Source: Ruminiclostridium sp.
GTDB taxonomy: Bacteria > Bacillota > Clostridia > Oscillospirales > Ruminococcaceae
Assembly (NCBI GenBank): GCA_017624025.1
Contig: JAGANY010000053.1
Location: forward strand, 1 to 62,410
Direction: 5' to 3'
Length of the DNA stretch: 62,410 nt
Shown: positions 3,040 through 5,930 of the stretch, in pieces
Position numbering within the stretch: the first letter of the stretch is position 1
How the letters are laid out: the number at the start of each line of letters is the position of its first letter
The notes under the pieces: generated by a model
Database searches by the model: none
What the model saw: only the letters and a program-made list of their open reading frames with translations
Told to the model about the DNA's origin: nothing
Program-made: the position numbers and the translations under genes

Positions 3040-3663
3040 TTAAAGTCTTTTACATACTTCCTTGACCCGTCCGACAACGCTTATGCGGAGAGCCTCCTGT
3101 TTTTCGAAACGGCGTACGGGATAATGAGGGTTTATGGAATGAAGCTCTACCCAGTTAAGACCGTACTTTATTATTTTTACAACCGCCTCGTCATCAACCA
3201 TCACAACAGCCACCGCTCCGTTATCAACACTGTCCTGACGGCGGACAAGAATCTTGTCTCCATCCTCTATTTTCGGGGACATACTGTCGCCCTTTACGTT
3301 TATCCAGAGATATTCGCCCGCTTCCGAAGCGTTGGCAATATAGGAAGGCTTATATCCAACCGCACTGCTGTCGGGATAAGCCCCGAAGCCCGCACTTACG
3401 CTGTCATAAACGGGAATATTGAAAACATTATCTATATCACAGACATTTTCTGACGGCAGGTCGAAGCCGAGAAGCCTTTCCACAGGCATCTGAAGTGCTT
3501 CCGCTATAAGCGAGGCTTTTTCTATAGGGAGCTTATCTATAGCTCCCGTCTCATAACGCTGGAGCGTCGATTTGCTTAAGCCTGTTTTATCGGCAAGCTC
3601 CTGGAAGCTGTAGCCAAGCTCGGTTCTTCGTATTTTCATACGGTTCATAATATCCTTTTTCAT
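3040..3663 (-). CDS. XRE/S24-family repressor (LexA/CI-like, self-cleaving)
   Basis: 207 aa. N-terminal Cro/CI-type helix-turn-helix (~5-60; FQELADKTGLSKSTLQRYETG) and C-terminal S24 peptidase domain (~83-205). The catalytic serine is in GDSMSP (S127) and the lysine in AVVKIIKY (K163); the likely self-cleavage bond is Ala91-Gly92 in VSAGFG. So it should be inactivated by the RecA-dependent SOS signal like phage CI or LexA. It is divergent from a zinc-ribbon/sigma-like gene pair, and the gap carries repeated TGTTGC/GCAAC half-sites, so it probably represses both promoters. It is not LexA itself: the DNA-binding domain is XRE type. The context suggests a small mobile-element remnant. Confidence 0.85.
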   Translation of the reverse strand: MKKDIMNRMKIRRTELGYSFQELADKTGLSKSTLQRYETGAIDKLPIEKASLIAEALQMPVERLLGFDLPSENVCDIDNVFNIPVYDSVSAGFGAYPDSSAVGYKPSYIANASEAGEYLWINVKGDSMSPKIEDGDKILVRRQDSVDNGAVAVVMVDDEAVVKIIKYGLNWVELHSINPHYPVRRFEKQEALRISVVGRVKEVCKRL

Positions 3664-3707
3664 TTTTTTATTCCTTTCCGAAACGACATTCTTCTTGTCT
3701 TTTTTAC

Positions 3708-3736
3708 ATTATAGCACAATTGTTGCGAAAATGCAA
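3708..3736 (-). promoter_or_regulatory. Promoter of the S24 repressor
   Basis: Minus strand: TTGCAT (3731-3736), 17-base spacer, TATAAT (3708-3713). The -35 and spacer lie within the palindromic operator 3721-3738, consistent with autorepression. Confidence 0.75.
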
Positions 3737-3856
3737 CATATTTTAGAAAAAAATACATTTTGTTGCAATTTTGGGTTGACAAAAGTCGATTATGGTGCTA
3801 TACTAAGCTTATCCCAAAAATGCAACGACTGACCCAACCAACCCGAATTTGCAACG
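3721..3856. promoter_or_regulatory. Operator cluster for the S24 repressor
   Basis: A palindrome TGTTGC-N6-GCAACA (3721-3738) plus further half-sites TGTTGCAA (3761-3768), TGCAACG (3821-3827) and TTGCAACG (3849-3856). They overlap the leftward promoter, abut the rightward -35, and fall in the rightward leader just before the ribosome site. Several copies of the same hexamer in one divergent gap argue for cooperative repressor binding. Confidence 0.7.
3776..3804 (+). promoter_or_regulatory. Promoter of the zinc-ribbon/sigma-like module
   Basis: TTGACA (3776-3781), 17-base spacer, TATACT (3799-3804). Half-sites of the TTGCAAC type flank it on both sides, so it is probably controlled by the divergent S24 repressor. 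Confidence 0.8.
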
Positions 3857-3867
3857 AAAGGAGTATA

Positions 3868-4089
3868 ATGTACCGATGCAGAATTTGTAGAACCAACGTA
3901 AAAACCGCCGATATTTCCGACTCATACGATAATGATATATATAAGGTATGCGGAATATGCGGAGGAGAAACAGAAAAGCCCGAAGTCTTCTGCAGTGAAT
4001 GCGGAAGCGGTTTATTCAACGGCGACAGAGCCTTCGAGGCTTCAGACAGAATATACTGCCCCGATTGTATAACCGCCGTTGTTGTTTAG
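3868..4089 (+). CDS. Double zinc-ribbon small protein
   Basis: 73 aa beginning MYRCRICRTNV, with four CxxC pairs (C4/C7, C28/C31, C42/C45, C64/C67), enough for two zinc ribbons. The start is chosen because GAAAGGAG lies 5 bases before this ATG; longer in-frame starts would run through the operators. It is followed 13 bases later by a sigma-region-4-like protein, and both stand under the S24-controlled promoter. It could be a nucleic-acid-binding partner of the next protein; no specific function is recognised. Confidence 0.7.
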   Translation: MYRCRICRTNVKTADISDSYDNDIYKVCGICGGETEKPEVFCSECGSGLFNGDRAFEASDRIYCPDCITAVVV

Positions 4090-4102
4090 GAGAAAGGAAA
4101 TT

Positions 4103-4525
4103 ATGAATATCAGAGAATTATTAAACAGCCATTCGGAAATCAATAACGCCATTAACTCAAAGCTTGAGCAGATTGCCGAGCTGAAAGCACTTGCAACAAA
4201 GGTAACTGCCTCAACCTTTTCCGAAAGTCATTCAAAAGGTCCCTACAATGAAAGAAAAGGAAGAACGACCGCAAGAATAATCGAACTTGAAAACGAGATA
4301 AACGAAGAAATCGACCGCCTCGTAGAGATAAAAGTAAAAATAAGAGGCTTAGTCGCTTCCCTTACCGACCCTAATCTTCGTATCGTTCTCGAAAGGCGTT
4401 ACATACTCGGCGAAAACTGGGAGAAAATATCCGAGAAAATGGGCTACAGCCCGAGACACATCTTAAGAATGCATAACCACGCCGTAGAAATACTGGAAAA
4501 CGGCAATGCAAAAGAAATAGCATAA
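4103..4525 (+). CDS. Phage-type DUF1492/ArpU-like transcription regulator
   Basis: 140 aa (MNIRELLNSHSEINNAINSK...). A long N-terminal helix (residues ~5-85, coiled-coil-like with charged repeats) is followed by a sigma-70 region-4-like helix-turn-helix (~90-135; LERRYILGENWEKISEKMGYSPRHILRMHNHAV). This layout matches DUF1492/ArpU/RinA-like late-gene regulators of Firmicutes phages. The start follows AGAAAGGAA at good spacing. It is co-directional with the zinc-ribbon gene and ends at a strong terminator. No structural phage genes or integrase follow, so it is either a remnant or a domesticated module. Confidence 0.7.
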   Translation: MNIRELLNSHSEINNAINSKLEQIAELKALATKVTASTFSESHSKGPYNERKGRTTARIIELENEINEEIDRLVEIKVKIRGLVASLTDPNLRIVLERRYILGENWEKISEKMGYSPRHILRMHNHAVEILENGNAKEIA

Positions 4526-4529
4526 CAAA

Positions 4530-4562
4530 AAGACCGCTGTAGAAATACGGCGGTCTTATTTT
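4530..4562 (+). terminator. Intrinsic terminator (copy 1 of 2)
   Basis: AAGACCGCTGTA-GAAA-TACGGCGGTCTT stem (12 bp with one G-T pair, GNRA-type loop) followed by ATTTTAT. The same hairpin recurs exactly at 5778-5805. Confidence 0.88.
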
Positions 4563-4606
4563 ATCGGCAATCATAACGTTATCCTTATCAGTTCCGTTTG
4601 AAATCT

Positions 4607-4831
4607 TTATTCGTTTTTTAAATCAATATTATTCTCGATGCAGTATTTTACGCAAAGTCTAACAAAAGGCGATAATTTCATATTGTTTTTTTCAGCGGCT
4701 TTTTCCCATTTCTCTCGTTCTTCTACGCTATGTTTAATTCCAGTTACCTTCATTTTATTAGAATCGTATTCTTTTTGCCATTCAAGCTTGCTGTTTAAAG
4801 TTTTATTTTCGCCTTTTCTGAGTTCTTTCAT
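4607..4831 (-). CDS. Ribbon-helix-helix-like regulator A
   Basis: 74 aa, start MKELRKGENK chosen for GAGAGG 5 bases upstream. The region NKMKVTGIKHSVEEREKWEKAAEKNNMKLSPFV has the strand-helix-helix pattern of Arc/CopG proteins; the strand would be MKVTGIKHS. The last 12 residues (YCIENNIDLKNE) are identical to those of the next regulator at 5034-5243, and the DNA coding them is also nearly identical. Upstream are two palindromes of the form ACGT-N3-ACGT, the likely cognate operators. Leftward transcription probably comes from the promoter 4975-5003 through a hairpin. No toxin gene is adjacent. Confidence 0.6.
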   Translation of the reverse strand: MKELRKGENKTLNSKLEWQKEYDSNKMKVTGIKHSVEEREKWEKAAEKNNMKLSPFVRLCVKYCIENNIDLKNE

Positions 4832-4862
4832 TTTTACCTCTCTGCACAACGCACAACATTAG

Positions 4863-4920
4863 TGACGTAAAACGTCATATTTTTGTAAAATTTAACATTG
4901 ACTATTCACGTCAAACGTGA
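4863..4920. promoter_or_regulatory. Two ACGT-N3-ACGT operators of cassette A
   Basis: TGACGT-AAA-ACGTCA (4863-4877) and TCACGT-CAA-ACGTGA (4906-4920). The second fills the spacer of the rightward promoter 4898-4926; the first is just upstream of regulator A. They are probably bound by regulator A. Confidence 0.65.
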
Positions 4921-4926
4921 TATAAT
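4898..4926 (+). promoter_or_regulatory. Rightward promoter of cassette A
   Basis: TTGACT (4898-4903), 17-base spacer holding a palindromic operator, TATAAT (4921-4926). Its transcript would start with the hairpin 4940-4967 and then run antisense into regulator B. Confidence 0.75.
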
Positions 4927-4939
4927 ATAAAAAACACGC

Positions 4940-4967
4940 AAGGACAGGGCGAATACGCCTTGTCCTT
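4940..4967. repeat. Hairpin between face-to-face promoters (copy A)
   Basis: AAGGACAGGGCG-AATA-CGCCTTGTCCTT, a 12-bp stem with one G-T pair. It lies between the rightward -10 (4921-4926) and leftward -10 (4975-4980), so RNAs started on either strand begin with this hairpin. On the minus strand it is followed within five bases by a run of T. The conserved block 4921-5004 recurs at 5337-5421. Confidence 0.7.
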
Positions 4968-4974
4968 AATAAAT

Positions 4975-5003
4975 ATTATATCATATTATAAAATCAACGT
5001 CAA
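4975..5003 (-). promoter_or_regulatory. Leftward promoter of cassette A
   Basis: Minus strand: TTGACG (4998-5003), 17-base spacer, TATAAT (4975-4980). It faces the rightward promoter at 4898-4926 across the hairpin and would drive regulator A. Confidence 0.7.
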
Positions 5004-5033
5004 GAAAAGAAATATGTATTAGGTTATACTACA

Positions 5034-5243
5034 TTATTCATTTTTTAAATCAATATTATTCTCGATGCAGTATGTTGCGGCAAGAAGCAAGAATTTGCTG
5101 GGAGAAACACCTTGTTTCACAGCTTGCTCTTTTATTATTTCCGCTTTTTTCTTTTCAACTCTCATTCCAATAGTTGTGTAATTTATTTCATGCGTTTCTG
5201 CATATTTTTTATCTGCTCTTTTTTGAGCCTCACTTCTTGCCAT
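5034..5243 (-). CDS. Ribbon-helix-helix-like regulator B
   Basis: 69 aa (MARSEAQKRADKKYAETHEINYTTIGMRVEKKKAEIIKEQ...). A basic N-terminus is followed by a probable strand (INYTTIGMRV) and two helices, the Arc/CopG arrangement also seen in plasmid and phage regulators. The C-terminal 12 residues equal those of regulator A, but the strand and first helix differ. Its upstream palindromes (ATATC-N10-GATAT type) differ from those of regulator A in the same way. GGG lies shortly before the ATG. It is divergent from the DUF6809 gene. Confidence 0.65.
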   Translation of the reverse strand: MARSEAQKRADKKYAETHEINYTTIGMRVEKKKAEIIKEQAVKQGVSPSKFLLLAATYCIENNIDLKNE

Positions 5244-5271
5244 TTTTCATCCCTCTATTAAAAATGCACCA

Positions 5272-5340
5272 ACAAAATATCAGATAAACCTGATATTTTG
5301 TGTAATATAACTCTTGAATATATCGCGTAAATCTGATATA
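5272..5340. promoter_or_regulatory. Two ATATC-N10-GATAT operators of cassette B
   Basis: ACAAAATATCAG/CTGATATTTTGT with a 6-base centre (5272-5301, perfect 12-bp arms) and TATATC-N10-GATATA (5319-5340), the latter inside the rightward promoter spacer. They share the half-site TAAA(C/T)CTGATAT. They are likely bound by regulator B. Confidence 0.68.
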
Positions 5341-5342
5341 AT
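5314..5342 (+). promoter_or_regulatory. Rightward promoter of cassette B
   Basis: TTGAAT (5314-5319), 17-base spacer, TATAAT (5337-5342). It transcribes the hairpin 5356-5383 and then the DUF6809 gene at 5430. Confidence 0.75.
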
Positions 5343-5355
5343 ATAAAAAGCACAC

Positions 5356-5383
5356 AAGGACAGGGCGAACACGCCTTGTCCTT
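5356..5383. repeat. Hairpin between face-to-face promoters (copy B)
   Basis: Same stem as 4940-4967 with loop AACA instead of AATA. It lies between the rightward -10 (5337-5342) and leftward -10 (5392-5397). Confidence 0.7.
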
Positions 5384-5391
5384 AATAGAAT

Positions 5392-5420
5392 ATTATATCA
5401 TATTATAAAATCAACGTCAA
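5392..5420 (-). promoter_or_regulatory. Leftward promoter of cassette B
   Basis: Minus strand: TTGACG (5415-5420), 17-base spacer, TATAAT (5392-5397). It would drive regulator B; its -35 lies about 10 bases before the ATG of the DUF6809 gene. Confidence 0.7.
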
Positions 5421-5429
5421 GGAGTAGCT

Positions 5430-5699
5430 ATGAGTATAATCAGAGAATTTTATCAAGGCGAATTACGTCCCAACGAAGTTAATTTTAAAAATCCCGTTTA
5501 TTCCTCTAATTTTGCACGTTACGAAAGAACAACAGAGCAATTAAAAAAATCTCTTTCAAAAAAGCAGAAAAAGTTGTTGGAAAGTCTTATCGGTAATTTT
5601 TTCAGTATGGAATACGAATTCGGTCGGGAAATGTACACAGCAGGCTTCGCTATGGGGGTAAAGCTGACAGCCGAAAGCTTTTGCACAAAGACTCATTAA
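5430..5699 (+). CDS. DUF6809-like protein
   Basis: 89 aa (MSIIREFYQGELRPNEVNFKNP...). The REFYxGxxxPNE opening, central charged helix (LKKSLSKKQKKLLESLIGNF) and the ending YTAGFAMGVKLTAESF match DUF6809-type proteins, a family of small helical proteins from Clostridia often near mobile-element genes. The function is unknown. AAGGAG precedes the ATG. It is expressed from the promoter at 5314, regulated presumably by protein B. It ends 79 bases before a terminator identical to the one at 4530. Confidence 0.65.
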   Translation: MSIIREFYQGELRPNEVNFKNPVYSSNFARYERTTEQLKKSLSKKQKKLLESLIGNFFSMEYEFGREMYTAGFAMGVKLTAESFCTKTH

Positions 5700-5777
5700 A
5701 AAAGCTTTTTATAAAGAAACCGACAGCAAATTATACCCAAAAATAATTCTTCCCTCTTCTCTCTTTTTAAAAATAAC

Positions 5778-5812
5778 AAGACCGCTGTAGAAATACGGCG
5801 GTCTTATTTTTT
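5778..5812 (+). terminator. Intrinsic terminator (copy 2 of 2)
   Basis: AAGACCGCTGTA-GAAA-TACGGCGGTCTT followed by ATTTTTTG. Identical stem and loop to 4530-4557, so the two copies bracket the regulator/DUF6809 cassettes as a direct repeat. Confidence 0.88.
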
Positions 5813-5819
5813 GATGAAT

Positions 5820-5930
5820 GATTAATAATGAAAAATGAAGGATTATTGTATCGCCTTACGGCGATGATTTAAAACAAACATTTTTAAAGCTATCTTTAAA
5901 TCCGTCTGCCGACAGGCAGACACCATAGCT
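5820..5930 (+). repeat. Two-palindrome intergenic element (copy 1)
   Basis: Core ATTATTGT, palindrome ATCGCC-TTAC-GGCGAT, spacer with TTTAAA, palindrome GTCTGCC-GACA-GGCAGAC, then ACCATAG. The left side has ATGAA-rich sequence. It is the same plan as the elements at 24407, 21052 and 30421. It lies downstream of metG and of the DUF6809 terminator. Confidence 0.6.

Follow-up and report, generated by a model that had tools for sequence, protein, structure and literature searches.

Ribbon-helix-helix-like regulators with predicted private operator pairs recur in constant surroundings beside DUF6809 genes in a Ruminiclostridium genome

In a 62,410-nucleotide stretch of contig JAGANY010000053.1 (Ruminiclostridium sp., assembly GCA_017624025.1; hereafter the window), two small regulator genes, RHH-A and RHH-B, lie in tandem on the minus strand beside a divergent gene of the DUF6809 family. 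We consider it likely that they are tandem units of a multi-copy cassette, each made of a ribbon-helix-helix (RHH)-like repressor and its private operators, with the repressor acting on DUF6809. The anatomy of the units, their private paired sites, the spacing of these sites, their mosaic identity and their recurrence can be read off the sequence.

Both open reading frames (ORFs) were confirmed in the window. RHH-A (4607–4831, minus strand) has 74 amino acids when read from the preferred ATG at 4831 (the ORF as listed spans 4607–4849), and RHH-B (5034–5243, minus strand) has 69. Regulators of this type share a conserved N-terminal SEAQKRA..KY stretch and a constant C-terminal tail, YCIENNIDLKNE, followed by the stop codon (minus strand, 4607–4645 in A and 5034–5072 in B). 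The last 12 residues of A and B are identical and are encoded by near-identical DNA (35 of 36 nt; the same codon at 11 of 12 positions), and a constant block upstream of each regulator (4921–5004 for A and 5337–5421 for B, defined by the repeat families D1 and D5 and by identity count) agrees at 78 of 81 nt, counted over 82 nt from the -35 element onward. Between these constant parts, similarity falls to near background, with 72/165 nt and 13/55 residues alike in the remaining coding sequence and 37/78 nt in the operator region. A preliminary description of this DNA had reported the near-identical tail and the upstream block of about 84 bp, as well as dissimilar operators for A (ACGT-N3-ACGT) and B (ATATC-N10-GATAT); we recovered all of these as described. 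Absent from that description were the facing promoters around a hairpin within the block, the DUF6809 neighbour of B and the further cassette copies elsewhere in the genome.

Each regulator has a predicted private two-site operator, with one site (O1) in the spacer of an outward promoter and the other (O2) beside the regulator start. In cassette A, O1 is TCACGTTTGACGTGA (4906–4920) and O2 is TGACGTTTTACGTCA (4863–4877), both of the form ACGT-N3-ACGT; in cassette B, O1 is ATATCAGATTTACGCGATAT (5320–5339) and O2 is ATATCAGGTTTATCTGATAT (5277–5296), both ATATC-N10-GATAT; all four are given on the minus strand. To score sites across cassettes, O1 was taken as the 17-nt outward-promoter spacer plus 2 nt, with anchors set by eye, and O2 as the remainder, ending 12 nt short of the regulator. 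Scoring against the own O2 covered 17 of 22 collected regulators, the other five (G022, G043a, vL186, G433 and G246) having no recognised outward-promoter anchor; the collection itself excludes six RHH matches (a second in G065, two more in G204, two in G304 and one in G305) and the viral loci L214–L217, and viral L218 and L220 entered a comparison of whole O2 regions only. Within this genome, every one of the eight O1 sites had its strictly highest score with the O2 of its own cassette (7 of 200,000 permutations as high, approximately the rate that identity pairing itself gives). The same held for 16 of all 17 cassettes, with mean scores of 12.7 for own and 6.8 for other O2 regions and not one of 200,000 permutations as high.

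When O2 was replaced by 150 dinucleotide shuffles, the O1–O2 score was never reached in 13 of the 17 cassettes; A fared worst (3/150), followed by C39a, G065 and G204a (1/150 each), and B stood at 0/150. The spacing between site centres was 43–45 bp in ten cassettes, 53–57 in four, 38–39 in two and 72 in one, and the two sites were in direct orientation in 14 of 17. We also searched the whole genome with each consensus, allowing up to three mismatches for B. The B consensus occurred without mismatch only at its two places, its further matches being this O2 read in reverse complement (2 mismatches) and five sites with 3 mismatches (1 in a backward control). The A consensus occurred without mismatch at its two places and with 2 mismatches at 16 others (15 in the control).

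The constant block consists of two predicted sigma-70-like promoters that face each other around a hairpin. In cassette A, the outward promoter pD (4898–4926, plus strand; TTGACT-17-TATAAT, 11/12 consensus matches) faces the regulator promoter pR (4975–5003, minus strand; TTGACG-17-TATAAT, 11/12), with the hairpin predicted by folding at 4940–4967. In cassette B, pD (5314–5342, plus strand; TTGAAT-17-TATAAT, 10/12) leads to the DUF6809 gene and faces pR (5392–5420, minus strand; TTGACG-17-TATAAT, 11/12) across a hairpin at 5356–5383. Judged by consensus matches alone, positions 4500–5850 contain 14 sigma-70-like sites (5.8 in shuffles), the best four of which are these two facing pairs. The blocks of A and B fold with z-scores of -4.5 to -7.8, and a hairpin was present in all nine blocks folded (eight from this genome, one from G004) with four stem sequences by eye, so position and structure appear to be kept rather than sequence. 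From the predicted start sites, the pR and pD transcripts would begin with about 36 complementary nt, which correspond to the hairpin. At the sequence level, the units show two hallmarks: closely opposed predicted promoters with a predicted repressor site on one of them, as in facing-promoter switches, and operator sites that recur at the promoter under control, as in RHH repressors.

The gene presumed to be regulated (5430–5699, plus strand, 89 amino acids) belongs to DUF6809 (Pfam PF20648, E 1.2e-13; 52.1 bits, above the curated cut-off of 27). This genome (1.60 Mb, 58% complete) holds seven DUF6809 matches, six of them above the cut-off, and eight RHH regulator copies including A and B. Five copies (B, C49a, C39a, C56 and C65) are divergent from a DUF6809 gene, and two (A and C39b) stand second in tandem at the loci C13 and C39, in the order DUF6809, block, first regulator, block, second regulator. 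The outward promoters of A and C39b have no DUF6809 gene ahead of them; each points, in antisense, at the 3' end of the regulator next to it (RHH-B and C39a, respectively). The eighth copy, C49b, follows what by eye appears to be the end of an XRE gene and has no DUF6809 match alongside.

Beyond this genome, DUF6809 was found in 33 of 60 genomes of the genus, the richest of which has 38 matches, and in 147 of 396 genomes of the family at E 1e-6. A divergent regulator was recognised for 35 (10 RHH, 25 XRE) of the 155 distinct DUF6809 genes whose available upstream sequence spans 300 nt or more, a lower bound rather than a survey, with seeds taken from the same loci and many genes coming from a few multi-copy genomes. 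These 35 genes adjoin 38 regulator ORFs, three of them having two in tandem. Tandem regulators upstream of DUF6809 were also seen at L034, L147 and L175 (XRE in two, RHH in one), and genomes G043, G011, G002, G059 and G034 carry many DUF6809 matches each (L060–L139), mostly without a recognised divergent regulator. A search of genome contigs returned two loci, both relatives being metagenome-assembled genomes labelled Ruminiclostridium sp. from deer gut.

The XRE (Cro/CI-type) cassettes resemble the RHH ones in their divergent regulator, in a private site within the spacer of the DUF6809 promoter and, often, in a second match. They differ in that the regulator is a helix-turn-helix protein and in that the XRE upstream regions displayed lack the pR pattern of the constant block. 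Among 23 of the 25 XRE genes (two with a weak promoter match were left out), the promoter-spacer site scored strictly best in its own flanks in 16, with means of 9.96 for own and 6.24 for other flanks and none of 100,000 permutations as high. Free swapping of regulator class was considered and rejected: a tree of 23 of the 35 regulator-bearing DUF6809 genes needs at least 2 changes of class compared with 7.3 in shuffles, so class is mostly inherited. A mosaic contrast like that described next for the RHH units was weak in XRE cassettes.

Regulator body and predicted operators differ as a unit between the constant parts, also in units on different contigs. In the pair B/C49a, the block agrees at 73/82 nt and DUF6809 at 235/267 nt (88%), compared with 87/162 for the body and 42/83 for the operator region; in C39a/C56, the corresponding values are 80/82 and 251/270 (93%) compared with 84/159 and 45/93. 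On the other side of the body, C39b and C56 share 38/39 nt in the tail and 98/171 nt in the body. Function can hardly require the 96–98% identity seen among blocks of one type (A/B, C39a/C56), since blocks of unlike type are free to diverge (B/C39a, 53/82 nt). Where residues are the same, the same codon is used more often in the tail than in the body in C39b/C56 (12/13 versus 10/29), C39a/C39b (9/11 versus 8/21) and A/B (11/12 versus 6/12). Replacement of the centre is probably the explanation of this pattern, and we prefer it, with divergence under conversion of the flanks as a strong rival.

Whether operators vary with the DNA-contacting part of the regulator was addressed across the 17 cassettes. 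The putative DNA-facing strand would be KMKVTGIKH in A, with V-G-K as outward residues, and NYTTIGMRV in B, with T-G-R. Mantel tests gave rho 0.22 between operator and strand similarity (90 of 3000 permutations as high) and 0.28 between operator and the rest of the protein (42/3000); the partial values were 0.20 for strand given rest (148/3000) and 0.26 for rest given strand (61/3000). Among single pairs, related regulators in other contexts have similar operators (C49a/vL185 10, and C56/G022 and G004a/vL186 13 each, the latter two scored against an unanchored 83-nt region), less related regulators also reach 10–11 (C65/G433 11; C65/G204a, C39b/C49b and A/C49a 10), and pairs with the same block score 6.5–10 (means read off the own-O2 score matrix). 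Similarity of whole O2 regions proved too blunt a measure, with 10–19 for same-block pairs, 14–24 for close-regulator pairs and a background of mean 12.6 and maximum 35. Inspection by eye shows GATTACTGTTAT in viral L218 and L220 as well as in G004a.

Operators thus tend to follow their regulators in these comparisons, and the strand is not singled out; covariation specific to the beta-strand was dropped as a candidate, its weak Mantel signal being inseparable from overall relatedness. The preliminary description had proposed that repressor and operator specificity co-evolve or are swapped as a module. The joint difference of regulator and operators amid constant surroundings agrees with this proposal, and comparison across relatives adds a weak correlation with the regulator, in which the strand cannot be told from the rest of the protein.

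From these features we infer an RHH fold, DNA binding, repression, autoregulation and recombination, which could combine as follows. In a full unit, pR would transcribe the small RHH-like repressor and pD, in the opposite direction, DUF6809. The repressor, probably as dimers, would bind the two cassette-specific sites, and occupancy of O1 in the pD spacer would block RNA polymerase and silence DUF6809. O2, mostly about four helical turns away and beside the repressor's own start codon, may provide cooperativity, an autoregulatory roadblock or both. Because the promoters face each other, blockage of pD would also relieve interference on pR, which would make the behaviour switch-like. Constant DNA (the block, plus DUF6809 where present, on one side and the tail on the other) surrounds a variable module of operators and regulator body, and this module is probably replaced whole through recombination in the constant parts. 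Given the private operators of each unit, the units should act without cross-regulation.

A more elaborate version would join A and B into a chain. With pD of A directed antisense, RHH-A would protect RHH-B from antisense transcription, complementary stem-loops at both transcript starts would add an RNA layer, and the constant blocks would serve as recombination sites for adding or swapping mutually insulated repressor–operator modules, yielding a natural library of switches around DUF6809 as a yet undescribed family of effectors. All of these elements together strike us as improbable.

The RHH assignment draws on several profile matches. RHH-A matches Pfam DUF6290 (E 7e-4, 20.2 bits, cut-off 27), and RHH-B matches a NikA-like model (E 0.0019) and DUF6290 (E 0.0022), likewise under the cut-offs; the matches of A and B span 18.6–20.2 bits against the cut-off of 27. 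Relatives also match RHH_1 (E 0.0024 in one of ten relatives) and RepB-RCR_reg. A profile search of the PDB returned 18 sequences at E up to 10, nine of which we take to be RHH-type (CopG, NikA, MazE6, DUF1778, CopG-family and 2kel; E 0.11–1.4). Positions 20–56 of the profile align to CopG 3–39, a non-significant match, in which profile positions 21, 23 and 25 (T-G-R in B, V-G-K in A) coincide with what we presume to be the DNA contacts of CopG.

A number of observations weigh against a repressor–operator cassette acting on DUF6809. The RHH assignment itself combines sub-cut-off Pfam matches with non-significant PDB matches, and designed helical repeats take the two best places among the PDB matches (E 9.4e-5 and 0.011) and were the sole matches of an earlier profile. 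The exception among the 17 cassettes is C65, whose O1 scores 15 with the O2 of G204a and 14 with its own, and 7 of the 23 XRE cassettes lack a strict own best. Operator palindromy barely exceeds that of shuffles (sum 143; shuffle mean 124, maximum 142), and strict palindromes were discarded as an operator signature for the weakness of this signal. Only 3 of the 12 pairs compared show a clear difference in same-codon use between tail and body, and this difference is smaller in the other nine; it is small in B/C49a (7/12 versus 11/20) and C39a/C56 (8/11 versus 12/18) and reversed in C39a/C65 (3/5 versus 14/19). Finally, with a recognised divergent regulator beside only 35 of 155 DUF6809 genes, even as a lower bound, DUF6809 does not need one.

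The surroundings of the units bear on their origin. At the A/B locus, C13, the cassettes lie between MetRS and a group of LexA-like, zinc-ribbon-like and DUF1492-like genes; core genes nearby are MetRS, L11 and NusG at C13, an M42 peptidase and phosphoglucomutase at C49, and AlaRS at C39. A terminator-like hairpin lies to the left of the cassettes (4530–4557) and a second copy to the right, before the MetRS gene (5778–5805), both within a 39-nt stretch (4524–4562) that recurs with 95% identity at 5772–5810. The C49 unit is flanked on both sides by another 28-nt hairpin in identical copies (L003, 1181–1208 and 1960–1987). Two units thus have terminator copies on each side, the arrangement that would result if a unit inserted into a terminator and duplicated it; as a general signature this was rejected, the five loci tested showing it at C13 and C49 and lacking it at C39, C56 and C65 (C49b was outside this test). 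A dispersed hairpin repeat, GTAGGGGCGACC...GGTCGCCC, also occurs near several units (L166, 490–513 and 618–641; flanks of the L004 unit). Further left in the window (3040–4525), an S24-type (LexA/CI-like) repressor gene on the minus strand faces the zinc-ribbon-like and DUF1492-like genes on the plus strand (sub-cut-off Pfam matches), and the gap at 3720–3860 holds repeated GTTGC/TTGCAAC elements that look like operators of the S24-type repressor.

Profile hidden Markov models found a DUF6809 or RHH ORF within metG flanks of up to 1.5 kb in none of 29 relatives, and only at the locus studied here. In the flanks displayed for ten of the 29, G022 (89% metG identity) apparently has a small gene and a DUF1492-like gene, and eight others have a metF-like gene (names by eye). 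Searches of 50,697 phage records gave no match for RHH-B (of the two window regulators, the one searched there) or for the window DUF6809, and no DUF6809 was found in two viral-contig scans with DUF6809 alignments; a plasmid search with a typical DUF6809, rather than the one of the window, gave a single match, at 34%. RHH relatives do occur on viral contigs, at 2, 5 and 4 loci in three scans with some loci in common. By eye, two sites are visible in L185, L218 and L219 and one clear site in L186 and L220. These paired or single sites, in L218, L219, L186 and L185/L220, are of the GATTACTGTTAT or ATGTTTAC type, and no DUF6809 was noticed alongside.

Three other explanations deserve weight. The units may have arisen by tandem duplication, after which regulator body and operators diverged and gene conversion kept block and tail alike, the module never being swapped and the regulatory logic remaining the same. 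We hold this history possible without favouring it: the tandem order at C13 and C39, the 24–53% of residues that regulator bodies still share between units of the same block type, and the small codon contrast in several of the 12 pairs, such as B/C49a and C39a/C56, all speak for it, and the clear contrast in C39b/C56, C39a/C39b and A/B, together with whole-unit contrasts across contigs beside DUF6809 genes 88% and 93% identical, speaks for replacement of the module. The units may instead be remnants of phage immunity, with which the preliminary description had compared them, or of another integrated mobile element. The viral RHH relatives, the terminator copies at C13 and C49 and the unoccupied metG loci of all 29 relatives fit such an origin. 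The core-gene neighbours checked at C13, C49 and C39 (integrases were not searched systematically) and the lack of DUF6809 in phage records and viral-contig scans argue against phage immunity proper, and the units were not seen to lie in a phage or prophage or to control lytic genes, no systematic prophage search having been made. We regard a remnant of this kind as unlikely and leave open some form of mobility for the units.

A toxin–antitoxin locus, with the RHH or XRE protein as antitoxin autoregulated at the operators and DUF6809 as toxin, seems to us slightly less probable still. It would agree with the weak resemblance of A and B, below the cut-offs, to DUF6290 and a RelB-family antitoxin model, with RHH and helix-turn-helix being common DNA-binding folds of antitoxins (PMC4803016), and with a Doc/DUF6290 pair tabulated in PMC12654330. 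Type II systems, however, form one operon, and RHH-B and DUF6809 are divergent; 120 of 155 DUF6809 genes have no recognised adjoining regulator, the same gene family is served by two unrelated regulator families, A and C39b stand second in tandem and C49b has no DUF6809 match alongside, and PADLOC returned no match.

If the cassette reading is correct, the system combines known principles in a form of which we found no description in the literature searched. Searches under the name DUF6809 and for ribbon-helix-helix, operator, divergent and Ruminiclostridium found nothing, and papers on DUF6290 were incidental by title, and none of the titles listed dealt with the present system. With seventeen related small regulators, eight from a single genome, all having two predicted cognate sites and several set in almost the same surroundings, both a DNA-specificity code of the RHH-type strand and the insulation of paralogous repressors become testable. 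The copies resemble a natural set of repressor–operator pairs expected to be free of mutual interference, and they place DUF6809, which reaches 38 matches in a single genome, in a regulatory context.

Arc and MetJ are RHH transcriptional repressors. A and B resemble RHH repressors such as CopG, NikA and RelB/DUF6290-type antitoxins in size, in the non-significant CopG profile match over equal lengths and in repeated operator sites at a promoter, and differ from them in having no match above a curated cut-off in the searches made, in their conserved SEAQKRA..KY and tail segments and in the divergent DUF6809 gene. Phages P2 and 186 use facing-promoter switches. Opposing promoters likewise form the switch of scbA-scbR (PMC3134472). 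The cassette shares with all three, by prediction, the opposing promoters with complementary 5' ends and the repressor site on one of them, whereas its predicted overlap is only about 36 nt and occupied by a hairpin, and it is a multi-copy bacterial unit with DUF6809. Lambdoid phage immunity modules vary in repressor and operators jointly, with their flanks conserved. The cassette shows the same joint difference inside conserved flanks, but core genes adjoin it, several units occur per genome and a single gene family neighbours them.

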